From: Bacteroides zhangwenhongii
Lineage (GTDB): Bacteria; Bacteroidota; Bacteroidia; Bacteroidales; Bacteroidaceae
Length of the DNA: 64,000 nt
Assembly (NCBI RefSeq): GCF_009193325.2
Contig: NZ_CP059856.1
Location: forward strand, 4,588,001 to 4,652,000
Direction of reading: 5' to 3'
The notes below the pieces were generated by a model. It searched no databases. It saw nothing but the letters and a program-made list of their open reading frames with translations, and had not been told where the DNA came from. Position numbers and translations under genes: made by a program. This document shows, in pieces, positions 35,126 through 47,206 of the stretch (position 1 is its first letter; every line of letters starts with the position of its first letter).

Positions 35126-36490
35126 GGCAGTGTCCATAATATTGTGTAAATGTAAACGGGATTCAGTTATAAGTTCTCTTATATCTGGATTCTGTTTTCA
35201 AAAATAAGCATAAACTGGTTCATAATCAATCCCCAGTTAGTAATCGGCATTGTCCATTTCTTCTCAATCTCCATCAAGGAAAGGTATACCATCTTCTTCA
35301 CTGCGTCATCCGACGGGAATGAAAGCTTTGATTTAGTGTACTTTCTGATTTTTCCATTCAGATTTTCAATGAGATTTGTGGTATAGATTATTTTTCTGAT
35401 TTCCAATGGGAACTGAAAGAAAACAGTCAGATCATCCCAGTTGTTCCTCCATGAAAGAATGGCATAAGGGTACTTCCCTCCCCATTTCTTTTCCAGATTA
35501 TCAAGCTCCGCGGCAGCAACTTCCTTGTTTGGCGCATTATAGATATTCTTCATATCTGCCGTGAACTCTTTTTTGTCCTTGTAAACGACATATTTACATG
35601 AGTTTCTTATCTGATGTACAACACAAATCTGAGTTGATGACTGAGGGAATACGGTACGTATAGTGTCCGTAAATCCGTTCAGGTTATCGGTACAGGTTAT
35701 CAGTATATCTTGTACCCCACGGGCCTTCAAGTCAGTGAGAACACCCATCCAGAAGGCGGAACTCTCTGATTTACCCACCCACATGCCAAGAACTTCCTTC
35801 AAGCCGTTTTGTTTCAGGCCGACACAGAGATAGACAGTCTTGTTGATAATCTTCCCGTTGTCACGGACCTTGAAGACAATACCGTCCATCCAAACGATGA
35901 GATAGACCGGGTCCAAAGGACGGTTCTGCCATTCTTGAGCAGCCTGGTTTACTTTGTTTGTGATGATGGAGATGGCAGAGGTGGAGAGTTCTATCTCATA
36001 GATCTCGCGCATCTCTTCTTCTATATCGGACACACTCATTCCTTTGGCATATAAGGAGATAACAAGCTTTTCTATGGAAAGCCCGCGGCTTTCATGCTTG
36101 GGGACTACTATGGGTTCAAACTGACCGTTGCGGTCACGAGGGATGGGTATGACAGCCTCGCCGTGCTCGGTCTGGATTTTCTTGGGGTAACTGCCGTTAC
36201 GGGAATTACCACTGTTATTGCCGGAAACAGAATGTTTCTCATAACCCAAATGAGCATCCATCTCACCTTCAAGCATCTTCTCCAGCACTTGGGCGTGGAG
36301 CTGCTTTAGGAACTTGCTTACGTCTGCCTCAGTTTTGAAATGGCTGAGGAACTCCTTGGTTAAAACCTCATCAGGCACTACATGATTCTCTTTCATAATC
36401 TTTTTCATTTTGCAAATCTATTAAATAAAAAAATACGAAACTCGTACTGAATCCCGTATTTTACATTTACACAAAATATTTTATAGTGCC
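35126..36490 (-). mobile_element. IS256-family insertion sequence, 1365 bp, with 8-bp target duplication
   Basis: Both ends read inward GGCA...GTGTAAATGTAAA over about 31 bp of imperfect inverted repeat. They are flanked by the direct repeat CGTAAGGT at 35118-35125 and 36491-36498, the 8-bp target duplication expected for this family. The single transposase gene fills the element on the minus strand. Restoring the empty site joins AAGAGAAAAG (35104-35113) to CTTTTCTCTT (36503-36512), so the element landed in the loop of a hairpin inside the older IS. Confidence 0.93.
35179..36408 (-). CDS. IS256-family (Mutator-type) transposase
   Basis: A 409-residue transposase of the IS256/Mutator type. 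[18 protein letters not shown] and [13 protein letters not shown] carry the two Asp residues, [19 protein letters not shown] contains the catalytic-Glu region typical of the family (NxIExxN), and [13 protein letters not shown] is the C/H signature. The frame is full length with no stop, so the element could be active. Confidence 0.93.
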
Positions 36491-36554
36491 CGTAAGGTAA
36501 AACTTTTCTCTTGATTTATGAGAAAGAGGAACATTTACTGAATATCCCTAAAAG

Positions 36555-36836
36555 TCACGCATTCTTCACTATATCCGTAAAATCAGACCAGTTCTCTACT
36601 TTGTAACCTCTGATATCACGAACGGACTTCTTAAACCAATTTATTTTCGACAAGGCCATAATCGCCTTAATAACATTACCTAAATCATCACTTTCGGTTA
36701 GATAAGTACTACCTTGCACCCAGTTAAAGCCATTTCGTCTTAAAACTTCTTTTATTTCAAAATAAGCATTATTGTAAGGTTCACCATAATGCTTTTTGAG
36801 ATCCGAAATGACCATATCGAAACTTATTGCAAACAT
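36555..36836 (-). CDS. VapD-like toxin (Cas2-fold ribonuclease family)
   Basis: A 93-residue protein resembling VapD: the N-terminal strand FAISFDM, then [25 protein letters not shown], and the end [20 protein letters not shown] follow the family pattern. VapD proteins are small endoribonucleases with a ferredoxin/Cas2-like fold and act as toxins or persistence factors in several bacteria. Its first 13 bases overlap the end of a 64-residue upstream frame, indicating translational coupling with an antitoxin-like partner. An IS ends 2 bp after the stop codon; the protein has normal length and seems intact. Confidence 0.78.
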
Positions 36837-37018
36837 TCCTCTTCTTTTAGTGGTTTAAACAAATCTTTCTGCCCGAAAAAGATAACTCCCTTATCTGTCT
36901 TCGCAGAGATGACAATGCCAATAAAGGGATTGTTTTCAACCTCTATCACCGTTGCCGGCGTCCAGTCGGCAAGCATAGTCAAATCGGGTGATACTAATAC
37001 TTTGTCTCCTATTTCCAT
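36824..37018 (-). CDS. Small protein upstream of vapD, putative antitoxin
   Basis: A 64-residue acidic protein starting [19 protein letters not shown] and predicted to form a small SH3-like beta-barrel (alternating hydrophobic strands, for example [14 protein letters not shown]). Its stop overlaps the vapD-like start by 13 bp. Small SH3-like VapX antitoxins precede VapD in Haemophilus; whether this protein is homologous cannot be judged here, but position and size fit an antitoxin. Confidence 0.65.
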
Positions 37019-37045
37019 AATGAGTTACCATTTAATTTATGAGAA

Positions 37046-37053
37046 CAAAGATA
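37046..37053 (-). promoter_or_regulatory. Putative -7 element of the toxin-antitoxin pair
   Basis: On the minus strand TATCTTTG matches TAnnTTTG and lies 27 bp before the ATG whose first base is 37018. Confidence 0.5.
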
Positions 37054-37081
37054 AGTACTTAAATTTGCACGAACAAGTATT

Positions 37082-38557
37082 TTATGGATTATTACCCAGC
37101 CAACATTCAATAACCGGCTTTTCATGCAAATAATCAGGCATACACATACCAGTCATTGCACCGACATAAGTAGGATCTGATATTGAATAATATGCTCCTT
37201 TATATATATAGCCACTTCCTTCAATCGGGCAAGTCAGTCTAACCGCAACACACTCATGACCGGGATATTTAACTAAATGACAATCAAGGTTCAAAACGTA
37301 TCTTAACAGATATGCATAAAATACAGCACGATCTTCACAATCACATTGGGGATAATAAAGAAGCTCTTCCATAAAGAAAGGCTTTTCGTAGCCGAATTGC
37401 TGACTATCCGTAGCATACGGAAAAGCATATTGCACGAACTTTAAAATACGATTGACAGCTTCCAGTTCACCTAAGCCGCTTACCTGTTTCTTTACCTGTT
37501 CTACAATTATTCTCCTCAATTCAGGTTGCAAAATCGACACAGCATAACAAGAGACAGGCATTTGCGGATAATGAGACAGCATCTTCATTAATGTCACAGA
37601 GACCTCGCTTTCAATGGCAAACTGACCATCAGTAAGACTAAACCTTCTCCATTCATTCACAGGCAAAGTTACCGGATGTTGGAATATTAAATCCACCTCC
37701 TTACCTGCCTTATCTACTTCCGGTATTTCATAAGTTGAAATGACCGGTGTCTTTTCTTCCCGCCCCTTCAATTCATCATAATAAATATGGTACTTCTTCC
37801 CATCTAATTTAATAAAAGAACGCCCATAGACCATCTGACGAAAAGGGATTAGTAAAACCAACTGTTTCGTATCAGTGATTCCCAAACGAACATCATAACC
37901 CAAATGTACCAATGCAAAATGAGTAAATACTATACGAGTTTCGGACGTCCCTCCTGTAAAAGATTGATTGACGCAATGACGTACCAAATCAACCTCCAGC
38001 CAGTCATTAAAGCCATAAGTAGAAACAATCTCTTTCATTCCGGATATCCATTGAAAACCAATATGTTTTTTCTGCATCATTTCCCAATATGCAGAAATGT
38101 TTTGTAACGTAGAAAAGGAAACAGGTTCTTTTTCCTTTTCTATCTCTGGTAATTCTATCTCCAAATCGTAAAAGGTATATACTCTTTTCTTATTTAGAGG
38201 TAAATCCGAAAGCGCTTTTAGCGGGATATCTGTTTTATTCAATGATATGGTATCCGTCACAGGAACAGTGTCAAGCAGCCAAGGAGAAGATAAAACAACT
38301 CCTTTAGCCGAATTGACAACAGGTTGTTTTTCAGGTTTAGGAATCATATCAGCCTTTTCTCCTATGAAACTTTGATAGTCCTTCCAAATTCCTTTCAGAT
38401 ATTCAGAATGCCTTTCGAGCATATTCCTCCGATGAGTATCATACTTATTCAGCATTTCTTTCCGATACTCATCAAAAGTCTGTTTCTCTTGTTGTGCAGA
38501 TAGTACTATCACACAAAAGGACAAAACTAATCCCGCTAAAATCCGCTTCGCTTTCAT
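37082..38557 (-). CDS. Exported transglutaminase-like cysteine protein
   Basis: A 491-residue protein with an SPI signal (ILAGLVLSFCVIVLSAQ). After a charged helical segment (about 25-75) and a mixed domain comes a transglutaminase-like core: YYPQCDCEDRAVFYAYLLR gives the candidate nucleophile (C407 in DCED, with C405 close by), YPGHECVAV gives H434, and YSISDPTYVGA gives the Asp. The family includes peptidases and cross-linking or cyclising enzymes. It is the last gene of the minus-strand operon headed by the caspase-like protein, so both cysteine enzymes may act on the same exported substrates. Its promoter-proximal region is duplicated at 39437-39479. Confidence 0.72.
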   Translation of the reverse strand: MKAKRILAGLVLSFCVIVLSAQQEKQTFDEYRKEMLNKYDTHRRNMLERHSEYLKGIWKDYQSFIGEKADMIPKPEKQPVVNSAKGVVLSSPWLLDTVPVTDTISLNKTDIPLKALSDLPLNKKRVYTFYDLEIELPEIEKEKEPVSFSTLQNISAYWEMMQKKHIGFQWISGMKEIVSTYGFNDWLEVDLVRHCVNQSFTGGTSETRIVFTHFALVHLGYDVRLGITDTKQLVLLIPFRQMVYGRSFIKLDGKKYHIYYDELKGREEKTPVISTYEIPEVDKAGKEVDLIFQHPVTLPVNEWRRFSLTDGQFAIESEVSVTLMKMLSHYPQMPVSCYAVSILQPELRRIIVEQVKKQVSGLGELEAVNRILKFVQYAFPYATDSQQFGYEKPFFMEELLYYPQCDCEDRAVFYAYLLRYVLNLDCHLVKYPGHECVAVRLTCPIEGSGYIYKGAYYSISDPTYVGAMTGMCMPDYLHEKPVIECWLGNNP

Positions 38558-38584
38558 TACAAACTAATCTATTCCTGTGATTTA
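38547..38584. repeat. Direct repeat copy 1 (real gene junction)
   Basis: This 38-bp stretch contains the start codon and first codons of the transglutaminase-like gene plus the stop of the Sel1-type gene. It recurs at 39437-39479 with a 5-bp internal duplication (AATCT) and otherwise near identity. Confidence 0.8.
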
Positions 38585-39337
38585 TCTAAGCGTTTTTCTT
38601 CCGTGACATACAGGACAAATTGGGGTATGATGTGTATGTGGAGAAGTACGGCTGCATTTAGGACAATAGAAGTTGCTTCCACTAGTATATTCTGCCCCAT
38701 AAATTATTTTTTCACCACCGACTCCCGTTCCATTACATCCCGGACAAGTCCTCCCTGACGAAGAAGAGGAACCACGACTACTCCCAGAAGAAGGAATTGA
38801 AACATCATTTACTCCAAGTTGAAAAGCAAGCATATTTTTTACAGCCACCCTAAACTTCTCGCGCATATCATCAGTCGCAGGATAGAAACCTTCTTTATTG
38901 ATACGAGCTACCGCCTCAATACAGTTTTTCACACCCATTTTTGAACCAATGTCATACATTTCTTTTGCTAAATCATGACTCACTGTGATACCATATCCTA
39001 GCTCAAGACATATACCTAGATAATATATCGCTTCTTTTAAATCATTATCAACCGCTTTCTTAAAAAACTTAAATGCACTATCATAATCTCTATGTGATAA
39101 ATCTATTTTACCACGCATAAAAGCAGCTTCTGCCATTCCACTATTATAAGCTCGCTGATTCATATATGCAGGATTCACTATTTTTCCAGTACCACCACAT
39201 GAAAAACAAGGCACATAGCCAATAGAGAGCCACGATCCTCCACTTCCTCCACATACTGTACAAGTTATTTTTTCCTGTGAGAATAATGTTATTGGAATGA
39301 TCAACGATATCATAAAAAACAAAAAGTAACGTTTCAT
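38582..39337 (-). CDS. Exported Sel1-repeat protein with DnaJ-type zinc motifs
   Basis: A 251-residue exported protein (signal YFLFFMISLIIPITLFS). Near the N terminus CTVCGGSGGS and CFSCGGTGK form a CxxCxGxG pair as in the DnaJ zinc centre. The middle has Sel1/TPR-like helices (AFKFFKKAVDNDLKEAIYYLG, YGITVSHDLAKEMYDIG). A serine-rich linker leads to a second cysteine cluster (CPGCNGTG, CPKC, CPVCHGRK). The combination suggests a scaffold or folding helper in the cell envelope. The gene is flanked by direct repeats, indicating it was inserted between two genes that were once adjacent. Confidence 0.75.
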   Translation of the reverse strand: MKRYFLFFMISLIIPITLFSQEKITCTVCGGSGGSWLSIGYVPCFSCGGTGKIVNPAYMNQRAYNSGMAEAAFMRGKIDLSHRDYDSAFKFFKKAVDNDLKEAIYYLGICLELGYGITVSHDLAKEMYDIGSKMGVKNCIEAVARINKEGFYPATDDMREKFRVAVKNMLAFQLGVNDVSIPSSGSSRGSSSSSGRTCPGCNGTGVGGEKIIYGAEYTSGSNFYCPKCSRTSPHTHHTPICPVCHGRKTLR

Positions 39338-39436
39338 AATTAATTGCTTTTAATTATTATTTGATGAGAAATCTGAAAACATTTATAATGAGAAATCAGT
39401 CTTAACCAATGCGATACTAACACTAATCAAATCCAT

Positions 39437-39479
39437 TTCGCTTTCATTACAAACTAATCTAATCTATTCCTGTGATTTA
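39437..39479. repeat. Direct repeat copy 2 (fossil gene junction)
   Basis: Read on the minus strand, this copy carries the end of the 216-residue gene (codons for SQE and stop TAG) and then a relic ATGAAAGCGAAA matching the first codons of the transglutaminase-like gene, soon closed by a stop. It shows that the transglutaminase gene used to follow directly. The remaining gap to 39338 has no gene. Confidence 0.78.
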
Positions 39480-40114
39480 AATCCTTCTTTGATAAAATCA
39501 CTTATCTTTCCGGCATACTTTTGTGCGGCAGCCGATTCTTTCATTGCATTCTCGTATGCCCGTATGCGTGCCTTAGTAGCTGCACTTTCACTGGCTATAA
39601 AGTAACTTTGCATTTCAAAAGTACCATCACCATTTTCACGAATAACGGTAAAGCTCTGTTCCAATTCACCTTTTATTTCCTTTTCCACTTCACGTTCGTA
39701 GGCTGCATAGAAATGCTCAAACTCACTGGTTCCTTCCGTTCCGTCTCCGGAAATATCGGAAACAACCCTACCTTTCACATGGCTACCGGCTTTTTGCGCA
39801 TAAGTTACTACCGCATTATTATAAGCCATCTGTACACCGACATTTTTAGATTTGAACTTTGAAGCAACTCCAAGTACTTCTACCGCATCATCCCCCATCG
39901 TAGACAATCTATCAAAATGCTTTAATAAAACTACATCCGCACTGCGGGATGAACCGTAAATTTTCCAGTTTCCTTGTTTCAATTCTTTTTGCTTGGCTTT
40001 AAATTCTTTCTTTAATGCCTTTTCCAATGCCTTGTTCTGAGCTTGAAGCTCGGTTGTTGATACTATTACTAATAATGTCAACAAGAATACAATTATCTTC
40101 TTCATAATATCCAA
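39464..40114 (-). CDS. Exported protein of unknown function, LPP20-like
   Basis: A 216-residue exported protein (signal KKIIVFLLTLLVIVSTTELQAQ; M4 is an alternative start). A charged coiled-coil segment (ALEKALKKEFKAKQKELKQG) precedes a domain with repeated alanine-rich helices (AAYEREVEKEIKGELEQ, SAATKARIRAYENAMKES) of the kind seen in LPP20/FlgP-type proteins. The family call is weak. It starts right at the stop of the lipoprotein gene upstream (0-bp gap), so it is co-translated with it. Its last codons lie in a duplicated junction. Confidence 0.6.
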   Translation of the reverse strand: MDIMKKIIVFLLTLLVIVSTTELQAQNKALEKALKKEFKAKQKELKQGNWKIYGSSRSADVVLLKHFDRLSTMGDDAVEVLGVASKFKSKNVGVQMAYNNAVVTYAQKAGSHVKGRVVSDISGDGTEGTSEFEHFYAAYEREVEKEIKGELEQSFTVIRENGDGTFEMQSYFIASESAATKARIRAYENAMKESAAAQKYAGKISDFIKEGFKSQE

Positions 40115-40813
40115 TTAAAAATGTATTTCTTTTGTTTCACTATATTTTGTTCCTTTAGAACTCTGCACAGCTGCATAAACATAACAGAAGGACCAACCTG
40201 TTACAGGTATAGACGCTTGAAAAGAGCCATTCACAATCTCACATTCTATAAAACTAACAGCACTTGAGTATGTCCCATAATAAAATCCAACTTTTTTAAT
40301 TGAGTATTCAGTGCCTGAATAATCAATATTACAACGGGCTTTTACATAAGGTTTGCTATAACTCAAACTGAGTCCTTCAGGCTTTGGCATCGGAACATAG
40401 TCGGAATTATCAATATATTCAGGTCCTATAGTCACAGTTCCTCTTGAGGTTGTAATATACGCGCCAACATAGCAATATCTCATATTATCAGATAGAAAAT
40501 TGGATATACCCTCTGTAGTAAACACATTACCACTGACCGTACATTTTATTTTCGTCCCTGTATTATAAGTAACTCCTTCATTATCTCCATAAAAGAACCC
40601 GACTTCAAGAATTGGTAAATCATCCTCATGATACTCAATTCTGCAACTAGCAGAGACAATATCCTCAACTACTTCCAAACTCAAATCCACCGGAATCGGA
40701 ACACTTCTTTCACTGTCTCCGCTCCAATCAAACGGATCTTCCGAACATCCCACATACATAGCGGATGCACAAATCAAAAATAATAACCTTACATATTTCA
40801 TATACATAATCAT
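40115..40813 (-). CDS. Lipoprotein with two fibronectin-III-like modules
   Basis: A 232-residue protein with lipoprotein signal (FLICASAMYVGC followed by SEDPF), probably starting at M5 (MKYVRLL). Two related beta-sandwich modules follow: ILEVGFFYGDNEG..YCYVGAYITTSRGT and IKKVGFYYGTYSS..FCYVYAAVQSSKGT. The conserved VGF(F/Y)YG and Y-x-x-A-x-I-x-(T/S)S-(R/K)GT pattern is common in Bacteroides surface proteins and suggests a binding or spacer role. No catalytic residues are evident. Confidence 0.68.
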   Translation of the reverse strand: MIMYMKYVRLLFLICASAMYVGCSEDPFDWSGDSERSVPIPVDLSLEVVEDIVSASCRIEYHEDDLPILEVGFFYGDNEGVTYNTGTKIKCTVSGNVFTTEGISNFLSDNMRYCYVGAYITTSRGTVTIGPEYIDNSDYVPMPKPEGLSLSYSKPYVKARCNIDYSGTEYSIKKVGFYYGTYSSAVSFIECEIVNGSFQASIPVTGWSFCYVYAAVQSSKGTKYSETKEIHF

Positions 40814-40832
40814 TGTCTTTTAAATTATCAAT

Positions 40833-41309
40833 TCATTTATTTTCTCTTTCCCATAGGTCTACAAACACTTCCTTGTGAAAAGTCTCTTTATCCTGCTTAT
40901 TCGCAGATAACTTTTTACAAAGTGCCTTCAATACGTCATCTTTCCTTAGTTTTAGAGTGATATACACTGTATATTTCCCATTCTTCTCCTTAATTACATT
41001 TTCATCAGTCACAGTCACATTCTGCAATAACATATTGGCGGTCATCCGAGTCTCTGTCATAAAATCATCGGCGGACTTTCCCGTTTCACTATTATGCTCA
41101 ATATAACTCTTCGTCACATTTTCCACTTTGCCATTCACCATTGTAGCCAATGTGTTTTTAGCAAACAGTAGTGCCTTCTGACGTGCTGAAATTACTGAAG
41201 CTGTAGTTGCACTTTGAGTTGTCTTGAAATACTGACCATCTCCCAAACTCTTCATAGCAAATACGCAACAATTCATTCCTAAAAATAAGATTAATAAATA
41301 GCACTTCAT
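40833..41309 (-). CDS. Small exported LPP20-like protein
   Basis: A 158-residue exported protein (signal CYLLILFLGMNCCVFA). The pattern SARQKALLFAKNTLATMVNG...VTVTDENVIKEKNGKYTVYITLKLRKDDV closely follows the LPP20/FlgP fold, whose members are envelope proteins often found next to DUF4384 or caspase-like genes. The start overlaps the stop of the upstream DUF4384-like gene (ATGA), so translation is coupled. Confidence 0.68.
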   Translation of the reverse strand: MKCYLLILFLGMNCCVFAMKSLGDGQYFKTTQSATTASVISARQKALLFAKNTLATMVNGKVENVTKSYIEHNSETGKSADDFMTETRMTANMLLQNVTVTDENVIKEKNGKYTVYITLKLRKDDVLKALCKKLSANKQDKETFHKEVFVDLWERENK

Positions 41310-42331
41310 TTCACCTCCTTATTTAAGTTATCAATAATTAAGTCAACCACACTAATCTGCAAATCCGGCTTCCGAACCCTGTTCTGTTGTAACCAAAGCG
41401 CAAATTGTCGGGAAGTTACCGAAGGAAGTCCACTGTACCCTTCAGGAAGTTCTTTATGTTCAGTATCGCCCATTGTAAAAAAGAAATCTTTTGTAAAAGG
41501 AGTTTCCGAAAAGAGATAATAGACACGAATAGCATCATATTCTCTATCGGTCATCAGTTCAAGCTCATCTACCATTTTCTGCTCTTTCAGCGGAACAGCA
41601 GACAAATCGAAGAAAGAATGCCAACGGTTAGCCTCTACCCAAACATCATCTTCGTGATCGAAAGCCGCATAAGGAAGCATACGAAACGCATTTTCTCCAT
41701 TGTCCATGAACAAGACCAAGTGTCCGGACTTCGTACTACGAAACCGGGTGATAAACAAATCACCTTGTCGAAATACCGAATCAATACCGACGGACAATTT
41801 AGCTTCTCTTTTCAGAATCGCCTGCTCTACAACCACCTGTTTCCGTCCATTCAAAATCTGAAACTCAAACTGCGGAAGGATTTGCCTTAAAGGTTGCGCA
41901 TAACCCTTTACCCGACATGTCCACTCTATGGCAGCTACTTTCTTTTTCAGTTCTCCCCTGCGGTTTGCCTTCATAATCTCCGCTTCTTTCGAACTCCATT
42001 CCGGTTCCATAAGATCCGCTTTCCAAATCCCCTGTGGAAATTGGGAAGACAAATCGACATAGTACTCCGAATGGCGAAGCTCGCTTTCAAAAGATTTCAT
42101 AAAGTTACCGTAAGCGATGGAAGTACCGAATTTCTTCTCAATAGCTTCTTGCTGTGCCATATTCAAAAGCCCTTCCCGGTCGAGTTCCTCTCCGCAGGGA
42201 ATCTTTATGGAAGTACAACCTTCCACTAACACCCAATCCGAAGAAGGAACTCCGTGAAAAATCTGTGAACGACCGGACACGGTGTACAGCAAGACTCCCA
42301 CTATCAGGCATATCTTTCCTTTCACACCCAT
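41306..42331 (-). CDS. DUF4384-like exported protein
   Basis: A 341-residue exported protein (signal GKICLIVGVLLYTVSG). The N-terminal half contains alanine/glutamate-rich helices (LLNMAQQEAIEKKFGTSIAYG) and a conserved WTCRVKGYAQ strand. The C-terminal half (about 185-305) has the DUF4384 pattern FRQGDLFITRFRSTKSGHLVLFMDNG...RMLPYA, a domain frequently attached to caspase-like peptidases. Here it is a separate gene in a caspase-headed operon, suggesting the pieces work together. The role is unknown. Confidence 0.7.
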   Translation of the reverse strand: MGVKGKICLIVGVLLYTVSGRSQIFHGVPSSDWVLVEGCTSIKIPCGEELDREGLLNMAQQEAIEKKFGTSIAYGNFMKSFESELRHSEYYVDLSSQFPQGIWKADLMEPEWSSKEAEIMKANRRGELKKKVAAIEWTCRVKGYAQPLRQILPQFEFQILNGRKQVVVEQAILKREAKLSVGIDSVFRQGDLFITRFRSTKSGHLVLFMDNGENAFRMLPYAAFDHEDDVWVEANRWHSFFDLSAVPLKEQKMVDELELMTDREYDAIRVYYLFSETPFTKDFFFTMGDTEHKELPEGYSGLPSVTSRQFALWLQQNRVRKPDLQISVVDLIIDNLNKEVK

Positions 42332-42340
42332 CTTTCTTTC

Positions 42341-43024
42341 CTAATAAGCTTTCAAAGTAGAATGTTTCTTCAAGAAACGGCTACCTCCAAACCAGAATCC
42401 TACCGACAGCGCATGAACCGGTTTCGCTTTATTTCCCAATCCAGCTTTGTCAATTGTTTTACTCATGCAGAAGTGTTTATAGCCGACACGAAAATTACCA
42501 AATTCTATTCCGACTCCAAACTGATAACCAAGAATAAAAGGCCGAGTACCGGTATCTTCCCAAACTTCCGGATCATCCTTCGGACTTCTATCCCATGAAT
42601 CTGACGAGGATATGTCCGCATAAGGAGTAATACCACCATTCAAATATACCCGGGCACGATTTGTCAGCAAATATTTTACTTCCACTTCCAAAGGAATATC
42701 CACACCCATAGATTGTGTATAAGTATCATAACCGTCAAAAGTACTGCAATCTTCCACCCACATGAAGCCTAATCCTGCCCGTAATGACAAAGCGAGGTAA
42801 TTAGGAGTCCAGTTACGGGGTAAAAGATAATCCATCATAAAGTTTGCCTGACCGAATAACCGTCCTGTTTTGTCTTCATTCTGAAAATAACCGTCAGAGT
42901 CATATTCATAAGCAGAGCTAAATCCGGGACCTCCTTCAAAGCCAAAACGCCACTGCGCATTTCCTTTCACAGAAAATACAAATAAAACACACAGTAGCCC
43001 TACTGTTTTTATTATTGTCTTCAT
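42341..43024 (-). CDS. Outer-membrane beta-barrel protein
   Basis: A 227-residue protein with SPI signal (TVGLLCVLFVFSVKGNAQ) and eight or so amphipathic strands alternating with polar loops (WRFGFEGGPGFSSAYEY, LALSLRAGLGFMWVED, FRVGYKHFCMSKTI, HALSVGFWFGGSRF). It fits an 8- to 10-stranded porin-like barrel. It lies between the caspase-like and DUF4384-like genes with gaps of about 20 and 10 bp and may be the outer-membrane anchor or exit of this system. Confidence 0.72.
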   Translation of the reverse strand: MKTIIKTVGLLCVLFVFSVKGNAQWRFGFEGGPGFSSAYEYDSDGYFQNEDKTGRLFGQANFMMDYLLPRNWTPNYLALSLRAGLGFMWVEDCSTFDGYDTYTQSMGVDIPLEVEVKYLLTNRARVYLNGGITPYADISSSDSWDRSPKDDPEVWEDTGTRPFILGYQFGVGIEFGNFRVGYKHFCMSKTIDKAGLGNKAKPVHALSVGFWFGGSRFLKKHSTLKAY

Positions 43025-43043
43025 TATTCACTAATTTGTTAGT

Positions 43044-45290
43044 TTAATATTTTATGAATGTATCTTTTGCACGTGCACTTACTTGGAGTACAGGATTCTG
43101 ATGCACTTGTTCACCTTCCAACTCTTTCACTAAATAAGGCACTCCCGTTGCCTGTTCGTCCGACAAATACTTATATAGCTCATCAAACGTCAATGTTCCA
43201 TCACCATTTAAGTCCGATTGTGCCTTATTCTGCATAGCTTTAAACAGGACATACGAAAACAGTCCATGCTTCTTATCTTTATACCAATTGGCGTATTGAT
43301 CTTCTTTCGCAGCCGACAATATGACGAATTTCGCCAATTTATCAGGTTTAGGACGACGAACAAATTCCGTAGCCGATGCTTCCATCGTTATCTCCTGTCC
43401 TGAGAAACAAGCATCAGTAATCACATTCACTTTATCCACCGGCAATGCCCCCAATACTTTATAGATACTCTGTAAAGAAGTAGCCTGTTCCTTGCAACTT
43501 TTCGGGTTCGAACGGACTCCCAGCAAATAGGGTTGTCCCATAAACGGATATCCATGACCGGAATAGAAAAAGTAAACTTCTTTGGCTCCTGTGGCAGCTA
43601 CCATCTGAGCCAACTTACCTTCCTGTCCGTCTACGCCAAAGATGTCATCAAAATCTTTCTTATCGGCGTTGGCCTTAAACAAGATATTATTTTCTTCCAC
43701 TCCCAACGTCTTTATCAGATAATCACGCATCGTTTTCGCGTCATTGACAGCATATTTCACCGGACCGACCTTAGTAGTTCCCTGTTTTCCGGTAGCAACC
43801 TGATAATCAGTATTACCAATAATCACCGCCACGGCATTTGACTTAACCTGCGCAACCGGAATATTAATATCTACATCCGATTTCCGGTCGTACACATTTT
43901 CCTGATAGGAAGCTATTTCGGGATATTTCTTTTGGAAAGCATTATGTATCGTAATTTCTACAGCCACACGACGATATTGCGCTCCCACCTCTTTAGCTAT
44001 TTCCGCAAAATGTTCGTAGCGCATATCCGCTGCCCTGAAAGGACCTACATGCGCCATCATAAAATCTTTAATATCCAATGTACGCAAATAAGCAAGCTGT
44101 TCATTAGAACTAATCCCTTTTTCTTTGTTTACCGAAACATAGCTATATGCTCCGTTCACAAAACATTCCGCGTCTTTGATTTCACCGAAACTGCCATCGT
44201 ATGCAACTGCATTTCTAAATGGAGCCGCATCTGTTCCTCCAATAATCTTCACAGTCACTTTAGTTCCCGGCACAATATATTCTTCCAGCTTCGACTCAAC
44301 TGTTGTTTTTATTATGCCTGCGGTCTGAAGTGCCGCCTGCGAATCTTTCAAGCGGTATTTCCCAGCCGACCAATCTTCAGTAGCTTGTGATATATTCATC
44401 TTCTTAACATAATCGGAAACGACCTGAACATCATAGCGCACCTTCATATTATATTCCACCGCCCCGTCTTTTCTTACTTCCGGCATGACTTCGGCATTCA
44501 CGTCCACCTTCGTATTCTCCGTCAGTTGATTATTGGCACGCAATAAGGCAATCGCCGTAGCCAGCATTTCCTTCAGATCATCCTTGATGTCTTTCGTCAC
44601 ATCTTCCGCTTTCTTCACAGCTTTCTTCACTTCTTCCACTCTCTGCCGTGTTTCCAGATTCTCGTTTTTCTTCTTTTCCGATGCCATCCACGTAGGATTA
44701 TAAGGTACTAACGCCAATTCCTGCGTCCTTCCTCCGCCACTCCCGGCAAGTTCGAAGCGATGCAAATCATCACCGACTTGTATTAATAAGGTAGCCGTAC
44801 GGCGTCCTTTCAAAGATTTACGGATAGGTATATTCACCTCTCCTTTCAAACTCTTACCAGGTATCAAATTCATTTTGGAAGAAGGCAACGCTTTATAGGT
44901 CGCTCCATCCAATGTCAGCCGGACATTCTTATCAGCATTAAAGAGTAAACTGCTACCTTTTTGCAGTTTGACTTCCAAAACAAAAGTCATCATTCCACGA
45001 TTGGACTTTCTACCAAAGTTTGACACCACACAGAAACTGTTCGGGCAAACAGAGATCAAATCATTAACCCTGACATTCGTGTCGAGTTGTGGCCAATTAG
45101 GATCATTTACATCAAAAGGTTTTTCCATATCCGACTTCACATCCCGCCACCCCACGTTGGGCAGTATCGATGTTTTAACCGGATTAACGGATGAAGACTT
45201 CTGAGCGTAAGCATCCACATTACATACCAGCATGATAGCACAGCACATAGCCGTCATCACACTACTGTTCTTCTTACATTTGTTCTTCAT
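43044..45290 (-). CDS. Exported caspase-like (C14-type) cysteine protease
   Basis: A 748-residue exported protein (signal CAIMLVCNVDAYAQ). The N-terminal part has two beta domains (about 30-200) with a coiled-coil linker (EKKKNENLETRQRVEEVKKA, about 205-250) and a middle region of OmpA/LPP20-like alpha-beta pattern (about 260-470). The caspase-like domain (about 485-720) shows AVIIGNTDY, the catalytic H579 in FYSGHGYP and C628 in ITDACFSGQE, and ends with an EF-hand-like calcium loop DLNGDGTLTFDEL. By analogy with metacaspases and gingipains it probably cleaves after basic residues and may be calcium dependent. It heads an eight-gene operon. Its targets are unknown. Confidence 0.82.
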   Translation of the reverse strand: MKNKCKKNSSVMTAMCCAIMLVCNVDAYAQKSSSVNPVKTSILPNVGWRDVKSDMEKPFDVNDPNWPQLDTNVRVNDLISVCPNSFCVVSNFGRKSNRGMMTFVLEVKLQKGSSLLFNADKNVRLTLDGATYKALPSSKMNLIPGKSLKGEVNIPIRKSLKGRRTATLLIQVGDDLHRFELAGSGGGRTQELALVPYNPTWMASEKKKNENLETRQRVEEVKKAVKKAEDVTKDIKDDLKEMLATAIALLRANNQLTENTKVDVNAEVMPEVRKDGAVEYNMKVRYDVQVVSDYVKKMNISQATEDWSAGKYRLKDSQAALQTAGIIKTTVESKLEEYIVPGTKVTVKIIGGTDAAPFRNAVAYDGSFGEIKDAECFVNGAYSYVSVNKEKGISSNEQLAYLRTLDIKDFMMAHVGPFRAADMRYEHFAEIAKEVGAQYRRVAVEITIHNAFQKKYPEIASYQENVYDRKSDVDINIPVAQVKSNAVAVIIGNTDYQVATGKQGTTKVGPVKYAVNDAKTMRDYLIKTLGVEENNILFKANADKKDFDDIFGVDGQEGKLAQMVAATGAKEVYFFYSGHGYPFMGQPYLLGVRSNPKSCKEQATSLQSIYKVLGALPVDKVNVITDACFSGQEITMEASATEFVRRPKPDKLAKFVILSAAKEDQYANWYKDKKHGLFSYVLFKAMQNKAQSDLNGDGTLTFDELYKYLSDEQATGVPYLVKELEGEQVHQNPVLQVSARAKDTFIKY

Positions 45291-45474
45291 TTGTAAGTAA
45301 CTATTAAATAATTAAACTAAAAAATAAGATTGTTCAGTTGGCTTGATAGCGCAGGGTATATATAGAAGAGAGCATATACCTGGCATTAAAGAAAATGGAA
45401 CTATAAACAAATTGCACTGTTTCATTGCATTCTATTGTTTGTTTTGCTTATAGCCTCCCCGGATTGGGCAATAA

Positions 45475-45700
45475 ATAAAAAGGCATGGGAGTCTGTACTT
45501 TTGCTTATCCCGCATTCAGGCTCTCGCATTGCCCATCTGTAAGGATAAGCAACGCAGCTAGCCCACGCCAAGATGAGATATACAGAACACCATGCGCAGC
45601 ATAATGTTTGATACGACACCTTAAGTGGACGCTTCCCGTTGCCGTATCTCCCTACAGATTTCAAATTTGCGAGATTCGAATGCAGAAGATAACGTTTGGT
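45475..45700 (-). ncRNA. Candidate structured non-coding RNA
   Basis: On the minus strand this stretch is GC-richer than its surroundings and full of paired segments: TTGCTTATCC with GGATAAGCAA (10 bp, about 45543-45552 and 45501-45510), GATACG with CGTATC, ATGGG with CCCAT and GGGCAAT with ATTGCCC. It ends with a T5 run in ATGCCTTTTTATTT (about 45472-45488). An 80-codon frame (45422-45664) overlaps but is rich in Cys/Trp and lacks any domain or ribosome-binding site. I believe the same sequence recurs in other Bacteroides genomes and may be a 6S-like or other regulatory RNA, but I cannot confirm this. Ends are approximate. Confidence 0.45.
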
Positions 45701-45721
45701 AAACGCCTTTCTTAATTATAA

Positions 45722-45752
45722 AAAGTCCCCGCCGCCCCCTCTGGGGCTAGCT
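45722..45752 (-). terminator. GC-rich hairpin followed by T run
   Basis: On the minus strand AGCCCC pairs with GGGGACT (one bulge) around a G/C-rich loop and is followed by TTTTTAT, as in an intrinsic terminator. It may instead be the 5' boundary of the RNA candidate downstream. No upstream gene on this strand needs it within 600 bp. Confidence 0.4.
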
Positions 45753-45886
45753 GGATGTTGCAAATATAGAAAGTAATATTAAAACATACAAACTTTCTTT
45801 TATTTTTATTTTTTCTCCACGATGACAACCCAATACAATTCACGAAAACCAACGAACTAATATGTATGGATTTAAAATTTCAAAGT

Positions 45887-45937
45887 CCTTCACCTTTTCG
45901 CCATAACGTCCTATTCATCGTCGTTTGCGGGTGAAGG
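45887..45937. repeat. Inverted repeat CCTTCACC/GGTGAAGG
   Basis: CCTTCACC (45887-45894) is matched by GGTGAAGG (45930-45937), directly followed by the AAGGGCCTT palindrome. The loop is 35 nt. A separate palindrome CACATATATGTG lies at 45959-45970. These may be parts of a conserved intergenic element in the gene-free stretch 45291-46372. Confidence 0.45.
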
Positions 45938-46070
45938 GCCTTCCCCTCATCAGTCTTTCACATATATGTGAATAGGGCACATACCCAGCCATGTTTTACT
46001 AATAGACAACTTCTTCTTCCCTATAGCCAAACTTCTCTTCATCAGTAACTAAATCTCGGTTTGACTAGTC

Positions 46071-46171
46071 GCAATCTATAAACGAAGCCTTTGATTATAA
46101 AAACGAAGGTTGCGTTTATATAAATGAAGCCTTTGTTTTTATAAACGCAATCTTCGTTTATAGTTTCATTG
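46071..46171. repeat. Nested inverted repeats with TATAAACGAAG units
   Basis: CTATAAACGAAG (46076-46087) is perfectly inverted at 46152-46163. Inside, TTGCGTTTATA (46110-46120) pairs with TATAAACGCAA (46140-46150), and ATAAAAACGAAGG pairs with CCTTTGTTTTTAT with one wobble. Flanking GCAAT/ATTGC extends the outer stem. At least four related units (AAACGAAG, AAATGAAG, AAACGCAA) alternate, so two competing folds are possible. The function is unknown. Confidence 0.6.
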
Positions 46172-46318
46172 CTGTAAAACGGAAGTTTAGATATAATCAT
46201 AAGGAAGTTAGGATATAAGAGAACACAAGTCTTACTACAATAAAAAGCATTCAAAGCTACGCACAACGGGAGCAGTTTCAAACTTTATTAAATATATTCC
46301 TATATTAAATATATTCAT

Positions 46319-46326
46319 TACCTTTG
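46319..46326 (+). promoter_or_regulatory. Putative -7 promoter element of nfo
   Basis: TACCTTTG matches TAnnTTTG and lies 46 bp before the nfo ATG. Confidence 0.5.
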
Positions 46327-46372
46327 CAATCATAGCCAACATAATCATCTCATACAATTAATAGATATCACA

Positions 46373-47206
46373 ATGAAAAAAATAGGCGCACATGTAAGTG
46401 CATCCGGCGGGGTAGAGCTTGCCCCCGTCAATGCGCATGAAATAGGAGCAAACGCGTTTGCTTTGTTCACCAAGAATCAACGCCAATGGGTAAGCAAACC
46501 ATTGACGGAAGAAAGTATCGCTCTCTTCAAAGAGAATTGTAATAAATATGGTTTCCAACCGGAATACATCTTGCCTCATGATAGCTATCTCATCAATTTG
46601 GGACATCCGGAAGAAGAAGGACTTGCCAAAAGCCGTGCCGCTTTTCTGGACGAAATGCAACGCTGCGAACAGCTTGGCCTGAAGTTATTGAATTTTCATC
46701 CTGGAAGTTCTCTCAATAAGATATCAATCGAAGACTGTTTATCCCTTATCGCAGAAAGTATCAATCTGGCGTTAGAAAAGACAAAAGGCGTGACGGCCGT
46801 TATCGAAAATACAGCCGGACAAGGCAGTAACTTGGGAAACGAATTCTGGCAACTTAAATATATCATTGACCGGGTGGACGACAAAAGCCGGGTAGGTATT
46901 TGTCTGGACACCTGCCATACTTATACGGCCGGTTACGACCTTGTCAACGAGTACGATAAGGTCTTTGATGAATTTGACAAGGAAGTAGGTTTCGGTTATC
47001 TCCGTGGGATGCACCTGAATGATTCCAAGAAAGCATTGGGCAGCCACGTAGACCGCCACGACAGTATAGGCGAAGGCCTGATAGGAAAGGCTTTCTTTGA
47101 AAGACTGATGAAAGATCCCAGATTCGATAATATCCCACTCATACTCGAAACTCCGGATGAAAGCAAATGGGCAGAAGAAATTTCATGGCTCAGAAGCATT
47201 GAATAA
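46373..47206 (+). CDS. nfo: Endonuclease IV (AP endonuclease)
   Basis: A 277-residue zinc-dependent AP endonuclease that cuts 5' of abasic sites in base-excision repair. All family signatures are present: [11 protein letters not shown] at the N terminus, the metal ligands in [58 protein letters not shown] and LILETPDE. Length is normal. It is transcribed alone, convergent with the ClC channel gene; the two stops are only 5 bp apart. Confidence 0.97.

Follow-up and report, generated by a model that had tools for sequence, protein, structure and literature searches.

The window analyzed here is a 64,000-nucleotide stretch of the Bacteroides zhangwenhongii chromosome (contig NZ_CP059856.1, positions 4,588,001 to 4,652,000), and its subject is a run of eight genes (g1 to g8) that encodes a caspase-like protease and an enzyme with a transglutaminase (TG) fold. 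The eight open reading frames (ORFs) lie on the minus strand at 37082-45290, exactly where the original prediction, made from the letters of the sequence, had placed them, with gaps of -4 to 126 bp (19, 9, -4, 19, 0, 126, and 24 bp from g1 to g8, as computed from the ORF coordinates). The genes are as follows.

43044-45290, minus strand: g1, 748 amino acids; beta-rich N-terminal part, then a probable OmpA-like domain fused to a caspase (C14) at the C terminus
42341-43024, minus strand: g2, 227 amino acids; small outer-membrane beta-barrel (OMP_b-brl, 29.1 bits, barely over the cutoff of 28.7)
41306-42331, minus strand: g3, 341 amino acids; DUF4384 family, with an FlgT_N/LPP20-like N-terminal part (from the alignment of relatives)
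40833-41309, minus strand: g4, 158 amino acids; LPP20-like (from profile work)
40115-40813, minus strand: g5, 232 amino acids; probable lipoprotein with two Ig/FN3-like modules (by eye)
39464-40114, minus strand: g6, 216 amino acids; LPP20-like, recurrent in cassettes; listed from a TTG, with an ATG three codons in
38582-39337, minus strand: g7, 251 amino acids; Sel1/TPR and DnaJ-like CxxC zinc motifs, below the Pfam cutoff
37082-38557, minus strand: g8, 491 amino acids; TG-fold cysteine enzyme, LapG-like

Judging from spacing alone, the eight genes may be cotranscribed. Promoter- and terminator-like sites were no more common than in shuffled sequence; seven Bacteroides-type promoter matches were found in the window (3.4 expected), two of which bear on the operon.

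45761-45792, minus strand: weak promoter-like match, TTTG-N20-TATATTTG, about 470 bp upstream of the operon
42641-42671, minus strand: Bacteroides-type promoter match within g2 (pattern search)

Among the eight products, g1 (C14) and g2 (OMP_b-brl) alone exceed a Pfam cutoff. The caspase and barrel labels originally proposed therefore stand directly, whereas in Pfam and NCBIfam none of the window's proteins matches DUF4384, LPP20, or transglutaminase, labels that come via relatives; the Sel1 and zinc motifs of g7 stay below the cutoff. Export of all eight products had also been proposed. Each of them passes a crude test for a hydrophobic N terminus, the one rule by which export was assessed, but the test is loose, since the neighboring VapD-like ORF passes as well.

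The original prediction was to fall if the genes did not co-occur in other genomes, and a neighborhood analysis instead found caspase-TG pairs recurring. Within the order Bacteroidales, the g8 profile matches 89 of 393 genomes. Up to 20 kb was fetched around TG matches, ORFs were taken from a greedy longest-ORF caller, and these were labeled with iterated profiles. Of 100 TG-centered loci (L102 to L201), two (L153 and L155) were excluded for want of a TG ORF; two further TG places, each beside a caspase gene, had been covered by the earlier loci L055 and L063 and were not recounted. In this Bacteroidales sample, window included, a same-strand caspase lay within 7 kb of 21 of the 98 TG-like ORFs longer than 250 amino acids (22 of 101 at all lengths). 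Uniform placement predicts 0.44 such neighbors (from hand-copied caspase counts, with at most seven caspases scored per genome), which makes the excess about 50-fold. The 20 positive loci besides the window represent 11 families, to which the window adds a twelfth (family labels are anonymous, and the 12 were counted by us). Many loci stop at contig ends, and the misses are therefore partly technical.

The other genes of the operon take part in this recurrence to different degrees. A g3-, g4-, or g6-like gene is also near 18 of the 21 TG ORFs that have a caspase neighbor, and within 7 kb of the 98 TG ORFs, g4-like genes were found at 41, g6-like genes at 39, and g3-like genes at 18, the g4 and g6 profiles overlapping. 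When 100 genomes were searched with the caspase protein, some caspase genes adjoined g8 relatives. Among 45 caspase ORFs in caspase-centered loci (L032 to L071), 21 had at least one partner nearby (TG, 7; g3, 11; g6, 10; g4, 8; OmpA-like, 10), a figure that is biased because the loci were partly picked through the OmpA-like domain. The recurrent core consists of an OmpA-like sensor and a caspase, which are fused in the window, together with a DUF4384 protein, an LPP20-like protein, and a TG-like enzyme. Two loci from different families (L102 and L103) have an identical five-gene order (propeller/OmpA-like, caspase, g3, g6, and g8); L150 has two more proteins, one CarboxypepD_reg and one CarboxypepD_reg/OMP_b-brl, and the cassette is rearranged, extended, or reduced in L164, L176, L184, L161, and L120. 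Comparison of loci thus shows that, across many families, genes predicted to encode caspase (with an export-type segment at the N terminus), OmpA-like, DUF4384, LPP20-like, and TG-fold proteins are repeatedly found together, with the catalytic residues of the two enzymes mostly retained.

Not all eight genes belong to the conserved core: g2, g5, and g7 lie outside it. Among the fetched loci, the barrel (g2) profile matched only the window and L031, and the lipoprotein (g5) and Sel1/zinc (g7) profiles matched only the window, apart from weak Sel1-type matches of g7 in two caspase ORFs. Relatives of g2, g5, and g7 thus number 2, 1, and 1 ORFs, window included, too few for a neighborhood statistic. 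This variable membership, together with the frequent occurrence of TG genes without a caspase, is what one would expect if the clustering were a regional grouping of envelope genes with no functional coupling. The excess of TG-caspase neighbors over uniform placement and the repetition of gene order across families argue against such a grouping, which we consider unlikely.

Gene g1 contains three features of interest.

43935-44525, minus strand: probable OmpA-like domain, residues 256-452 (GGTD ... NEQLAYLRT ... YRRVAVEI), from alignment, model, and profile
43080-43832, minus strand: caspase domain, residues 487-737, with H579 and C628 (Pfam, alignment)
43179-43214, minus strand: EF-hand-like loop DLNGDGTLTFDE, residues 693-704, inside the caspase domain, below the Pfam cutoff

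The protein is a member of Peptidase C14 (PF00656, 49.2 bits against a cutoff of 21.4, E value of 7.4e-13) with the His-Cys dyad present. The catalytic residues read by eye in the original prediction, H579 and C628, are real and unchanged in all 32 aligned relatives; across the fetched loci and the window, both positions are kept in 70 of 71 caspase ORFs. Of the alignments built, A1 drew on 31 of 50 listed homologues and A2 on 47 of 120 listed out of 1,659. By a loose pattern, all 32 close relatives have the EF-hand-like loop; by a stricter one, 7 of 71 caspases in general have it, and it therefore looks like a subfamily trait. The genome has only one other C14 match (L206, 1423-2373), elsewhere on the chromosome: a small caspase that consists of a single domain and has an export-type N terminus.

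Residues 256-452 of g1 are a probable OmpA-like domain. Pfam OmpA (PF00691) has no match in g1 and is not among the 25 families shown, of 60, for 13 split or fused OmpA-like proteins. The g1 model (mean pLDDT, i.e., predicted local distance difference test score, of 73.5) has a beta-alpha-beta unit, a hairpin, and an alpha-beta-beta unit across approximately residues 277-448, and a Foldseek search with it returned the MotB periplasmic domain (2zvz; TMt, 0.47; root-mean-square deviation, 8.9) at rank 48 amid weak rows. D354 and R403 are invariant in the alignment of g1 relatives, and an Asp/Arg pair makes the peptidoglycan contact in OmpA domains. In 10 of 59 other genomes of the genus (L034 to L043), the caspase domain and the region corresponding to residues 238-456 of g1 are two adjacent genes. 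In such split cassettes the OmpA-like domain terminates a separate WD40-type propeller protein; propellers are present in 12 of 12 separate OmpA-like proteins, and the thirteenth member of the alignment, g1 of the window, is without one. Seven other caspases were scanned for N-terminal repeats, which were TPR in four, LRR in one, and WG in one. That the two partners form a single polypeptide in the window argues for their functional coupling. The division of DUF4384 and caspase into separate genes, originally read as pointing to a multipart machine, proved less telling: DUF4384 is a separate neighbor gene in the cassettes listed, and the informative split and fusion is that of the OmpA-like domain and the caspase.

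A caspase joined to a possible sensor could also be the executioner of an envelope-level cell-death or antiphage module, triggered by damage sensed via the OmpA-like/propeller protein. TPR and propeller partners suit a sensor, the best NCBIfam model for g1 is an EACC1-associated caspase (far below the cutoff, at 54.7 of 140 bits), and the available part of one paper describes caspase-like peptidases as common in bacterial conflict systems (PMC7159879). We nevertheless regard such a module as quite improbable. All eight products look exported; PADLOC gave a generic caspase model for g1, a weak PDC-M01B match for g7 (E value of 0.0047), and nothing for the other six; and in L034, L039, and L041, of the same genus, the split OmpA-like/caspase pair, with no TG nearby, sits beside a CCA-adding-enzyme-like gene (by eye), a chromosomal setting.

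The catalytic features of g8 are listed below, all from the alignment.

37331-37342, minus strand: D406-C407-E408-D409, the catalytic Cys with acidic flanks as in the LapG-type calcium motif
37256-37258, minus strand: H434
37175-37177, minus strand: D461

The catalytic residues proposed for g8 (C407, H434, and an Asp) proved conserved, the C407/H434/D461 triad being invariant in 48 of 48 aligned relatives. Asp and Glu flank the catalytic Cys in all 48, and an ungapped Asp-Cys-Glu occurs in 93 of 101 relatives, a correspondence seen at the sequence level only; the DvhG counterpart of D406/C407/E408 is D316/C317/E318. The same motif is found in 0 of 28 canonical transglutaminase-core loci in which the catalytic Cys was located (of 30). 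Transglut_core (PF01841) has no match in g8 and is weak in 8 of the 48 alignment members (best, 5e-4), and a sequence profile search of the PDB returned no relative over the catalytic part, its one match being N terminal (E value of 0.28). The version first put forward had a true transglutaminase cross-linking exported proteins and the caspase acting as processor. LapG is among the best fold matches of g8, and the LapG-type acidic flanks are absent from the canonical loci; nothing found supports cross-linking, and after the fold and motif work we downgraded it to very improbable. The enzyme looks more like a LapG-like protease than a cross-linking transglutaminase.

Two variants of the TG-like family were seen. 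Ser or Asp occupies the catalytic Cys position in ORFs of L187, L194, L195, and L196, which are either inactive relatives or misaligned. A long form (approximately 830 to 930 amino acids; L117, 5602-8223; L124, 8093-10744; and similar ORFs) carries extra sequence, several examples lie near g4-like genes, and both long proteins scanned matched SBBP beta-propeller repeats.

The accessory products were characterized largely through their relatives. DUF4384 (PF14326) was matched by 10 of 15 members of the g3 alignment and FlgT_N weakly by 2 of 15, neither by g3 itself; LPP20 (PF02169) was matched by 1 of 16 members of the g4/g6 alignment (E value of 0.0028), and the g4 profile is related to the g6 family, the two families sharing members. 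The barrel g2 did not reach the threshold as a type IX secretion PorT/SprT protein (NF052311, 17.5 bits against 125). By eye, g5 has an atypical lipobox-like Cys (YVGC), with SED after the Cys. Other cassettes include lipoproteins of fn3 type or fimbrillin-like ones, and L042, from the same genus, has a CarboxypepD_reg-like protein and, between the caspase and the TG gene, three consecutive Mfa_like_1 lipoprotein genes. The last arrangement suggests maturation of a pilus-like, fimbrillin-type polymer, in which the exported caspase would stand in for the Porphyromonas arginine gingipain with the surface lipoprotein as its substrate. Mfa1 polymerization depends on trimming by Rgp (PMC5954841), and orthocaspases cleave after positively charged residues (PMC6426788), as stated in the portions of these papers available. 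Among the accessory proteins scanned, however, fimbrillin domains were confined to this one cassette, no Mfa_like_1 match was found in the window operon, whose lipoprotein is included, and the TG, LPP20, and DUF4384 members would be left unexplained. Polymer maturation is thus an unlikely explanation, if a slightly better one than mere regional grouping.

The reading that we favor, tentatively and with a little less than even confidence, is that the operon encodes a modular device with two proteases, one that recurs in the Bacteroidales and works in their envelope. The OmpA-like domain would bind peptidoglycan and so hold the caspase close to the outer membrane, with which the DUF4384 and LPP20-like proteins would associate as a scaffold. 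Cuts made by the caspase and the LapG-like enzyme in periplasmic segments of the co-encoded barrel, the surface lipoprotein, or other surface proteins might release or mature these proteins. Calcium may gate both proteases, one through its LapG-type Asp-Cys-Glu site and the other through the EF-hand-like loop of this caspase subfamily. The substrate, the order of action, and the trigger in this model are ones that we infer. Of the multipart exported machine originally envisaged, the two cysteine enzymes and their apparent export are retained; of its suggested roles in processing and cross-linking, processing alone is kept. A more specific version, in which the surface is edited by a calcium-gated proteolytic cascade of the tethered caspase and the LapG-like protease, with the propeller/OmpA-like protein as sensor and LPP20/DUF4384 as outer-membrane scaffold, is doubtful.

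Several observations weigh against the two-protease device. No same-strand caspase was found within 7 kb of 77 of the 98 TG ORFs (in L119 and L167 there is one on the opposite strand), and in the family to which the window belongs, a g8 search matches 108 of 399 genomes; TG-like proteins therefore occur apart from caspases. The closest whole-operon relative found, L031, has caspase, barrel, lipoprotein, g6, g3, and g4 in order and no TG in its 21 kb; the single TG match of that genome lies elsewhere, with no caspase seen by eye in the 4 kb inspected there, and the caspase-side module and the TG gene are therefore separable. The second TG copy of the window genome (L105) has no labeled caspase in 20 kb, which limits the cassette claim; about 8 kb from it is a g6-like ORF, recognized by eye. 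The identification of the OmpA-like domain is weak: in a profile comparison with 32 OmpA rows, the motifs were collinear at modest probabilities of 22 to 42% (controls, 0.1 to 9.5%). LapG fold matches of g8 barely exceed those of other TG-fold proteins (TglA, 9crn, 8.8; many at 7 to 8), so the fold leaves the chemistry unsettled. The catalytic Cys is present in 97 of 101 g8 relatives and absent in 4, and Peptidase_C93 (PF06035) is matched by 0 of the 48 alignment members at an E value of ≤1 and by none in the window's genome. No [TAP]AAG LapG-type cleavage site occurs in the eight products. Calcium gating as a general property of caspases was dropped, given the low count of EF-hand-like loops among them.

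Each known system resembles the cassette in part. Like the calcium-dependent proteases LapG and DvhG of the Lap and Dvh systems, g8 combines a TG fold, an export-type N terminus, a C-H-D triad, and Asp/Glu flanks. Unlike them, it has no Pfam C93 domain and is paired with a caspase, and its Cys-His and His-Asp spacings are 27 and 27, those of LapG being approximately 37 and 17. No gene for a LapD-like protein or a type I secretion system adhesin is present among the eight (the rest of the genome was not searched for LapD). Arg-gingipain, a clan CD, family C25 enzyme secreted by the type IX secretion system, is likewise an exported Cys protease, and the fimbrillin-like lipoproteins of L042 parallel its fimbrillin substrates, unlike the window operon. 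FlgT and LPP20 are outer-membrane proteins of flagella; the weak matches among relatives recall them, but no flagellar gene is present among the eight, and DUF4384 is found instead. With bacterial metacaspases, the operon shares a C14 domain, an HC dyad, and an operon setting. The available part of a survey of metacaspase operons reports OmpA in 14 operons and proteolysis domains in 23 and describes neither an OmpA-caspase fusion nor a caspase/TG/DUF4384/LPP20 cassette (PMC3501461).

The surroundings of the operon were also annotated. A polysaccharide-utilization-type locus on the plus strand (1965-33385) encodes a hybrid two-component regulator, two heparinase II/III proteins, an SGBP_BT4661-like protein, a SusC/SusD-type pair, and sulfatase, GH95-like, DUF4995, and DUF4962 proteins; it may serve the use of heparin or heparan sulfate. 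Just downstream of the operon (35179-36836, minus strand) are a transposase-like ORF (IS256-like by eye) and the VapD/Cas2-like ORF (Pfam Cas2, 24.8 bits against a cutoff of 23.8; NCBIfam VapD, 45 of 100 bits). Upstream, a palindrome-like stretch (46073-46166) resembles an Rfam microRNA on both strands, far below the gathering score; an Rfam scan of 36400-46400 returned two such microRNA matches only, which we took as chance.

The cassette is real and recurrent, is made of known domain types, and is undescribed as a combination within the literature searched. That literature concerned bacterial caspases and metacaspases, DUF4384, LPP20, and BTLCP, lay mostly outside subscription journals, and was available in part; the cassette is absent from the portions of PMC3501461, PMC7159879, and PMC6426788 consulted. 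The original remark that no described system has this composition holds to that extent. In the part of PMC7159879 available, bacterial caspases are treated as effectors of intracellular-type systems. An exported caspase cassette with a LapG-like partner would, if the two-protease reading is true, give the caspases of an abundant bacterial order a concrete role at the cell surface and suggest periplasmic proteolytic control of surface proteins without the Lap proteins named so far. The calcium-gated cascade, should it prove true, would be a previously undescribed class of envelope signaling or processing machine, i.e., an extracytoplasmic caspase pathway.

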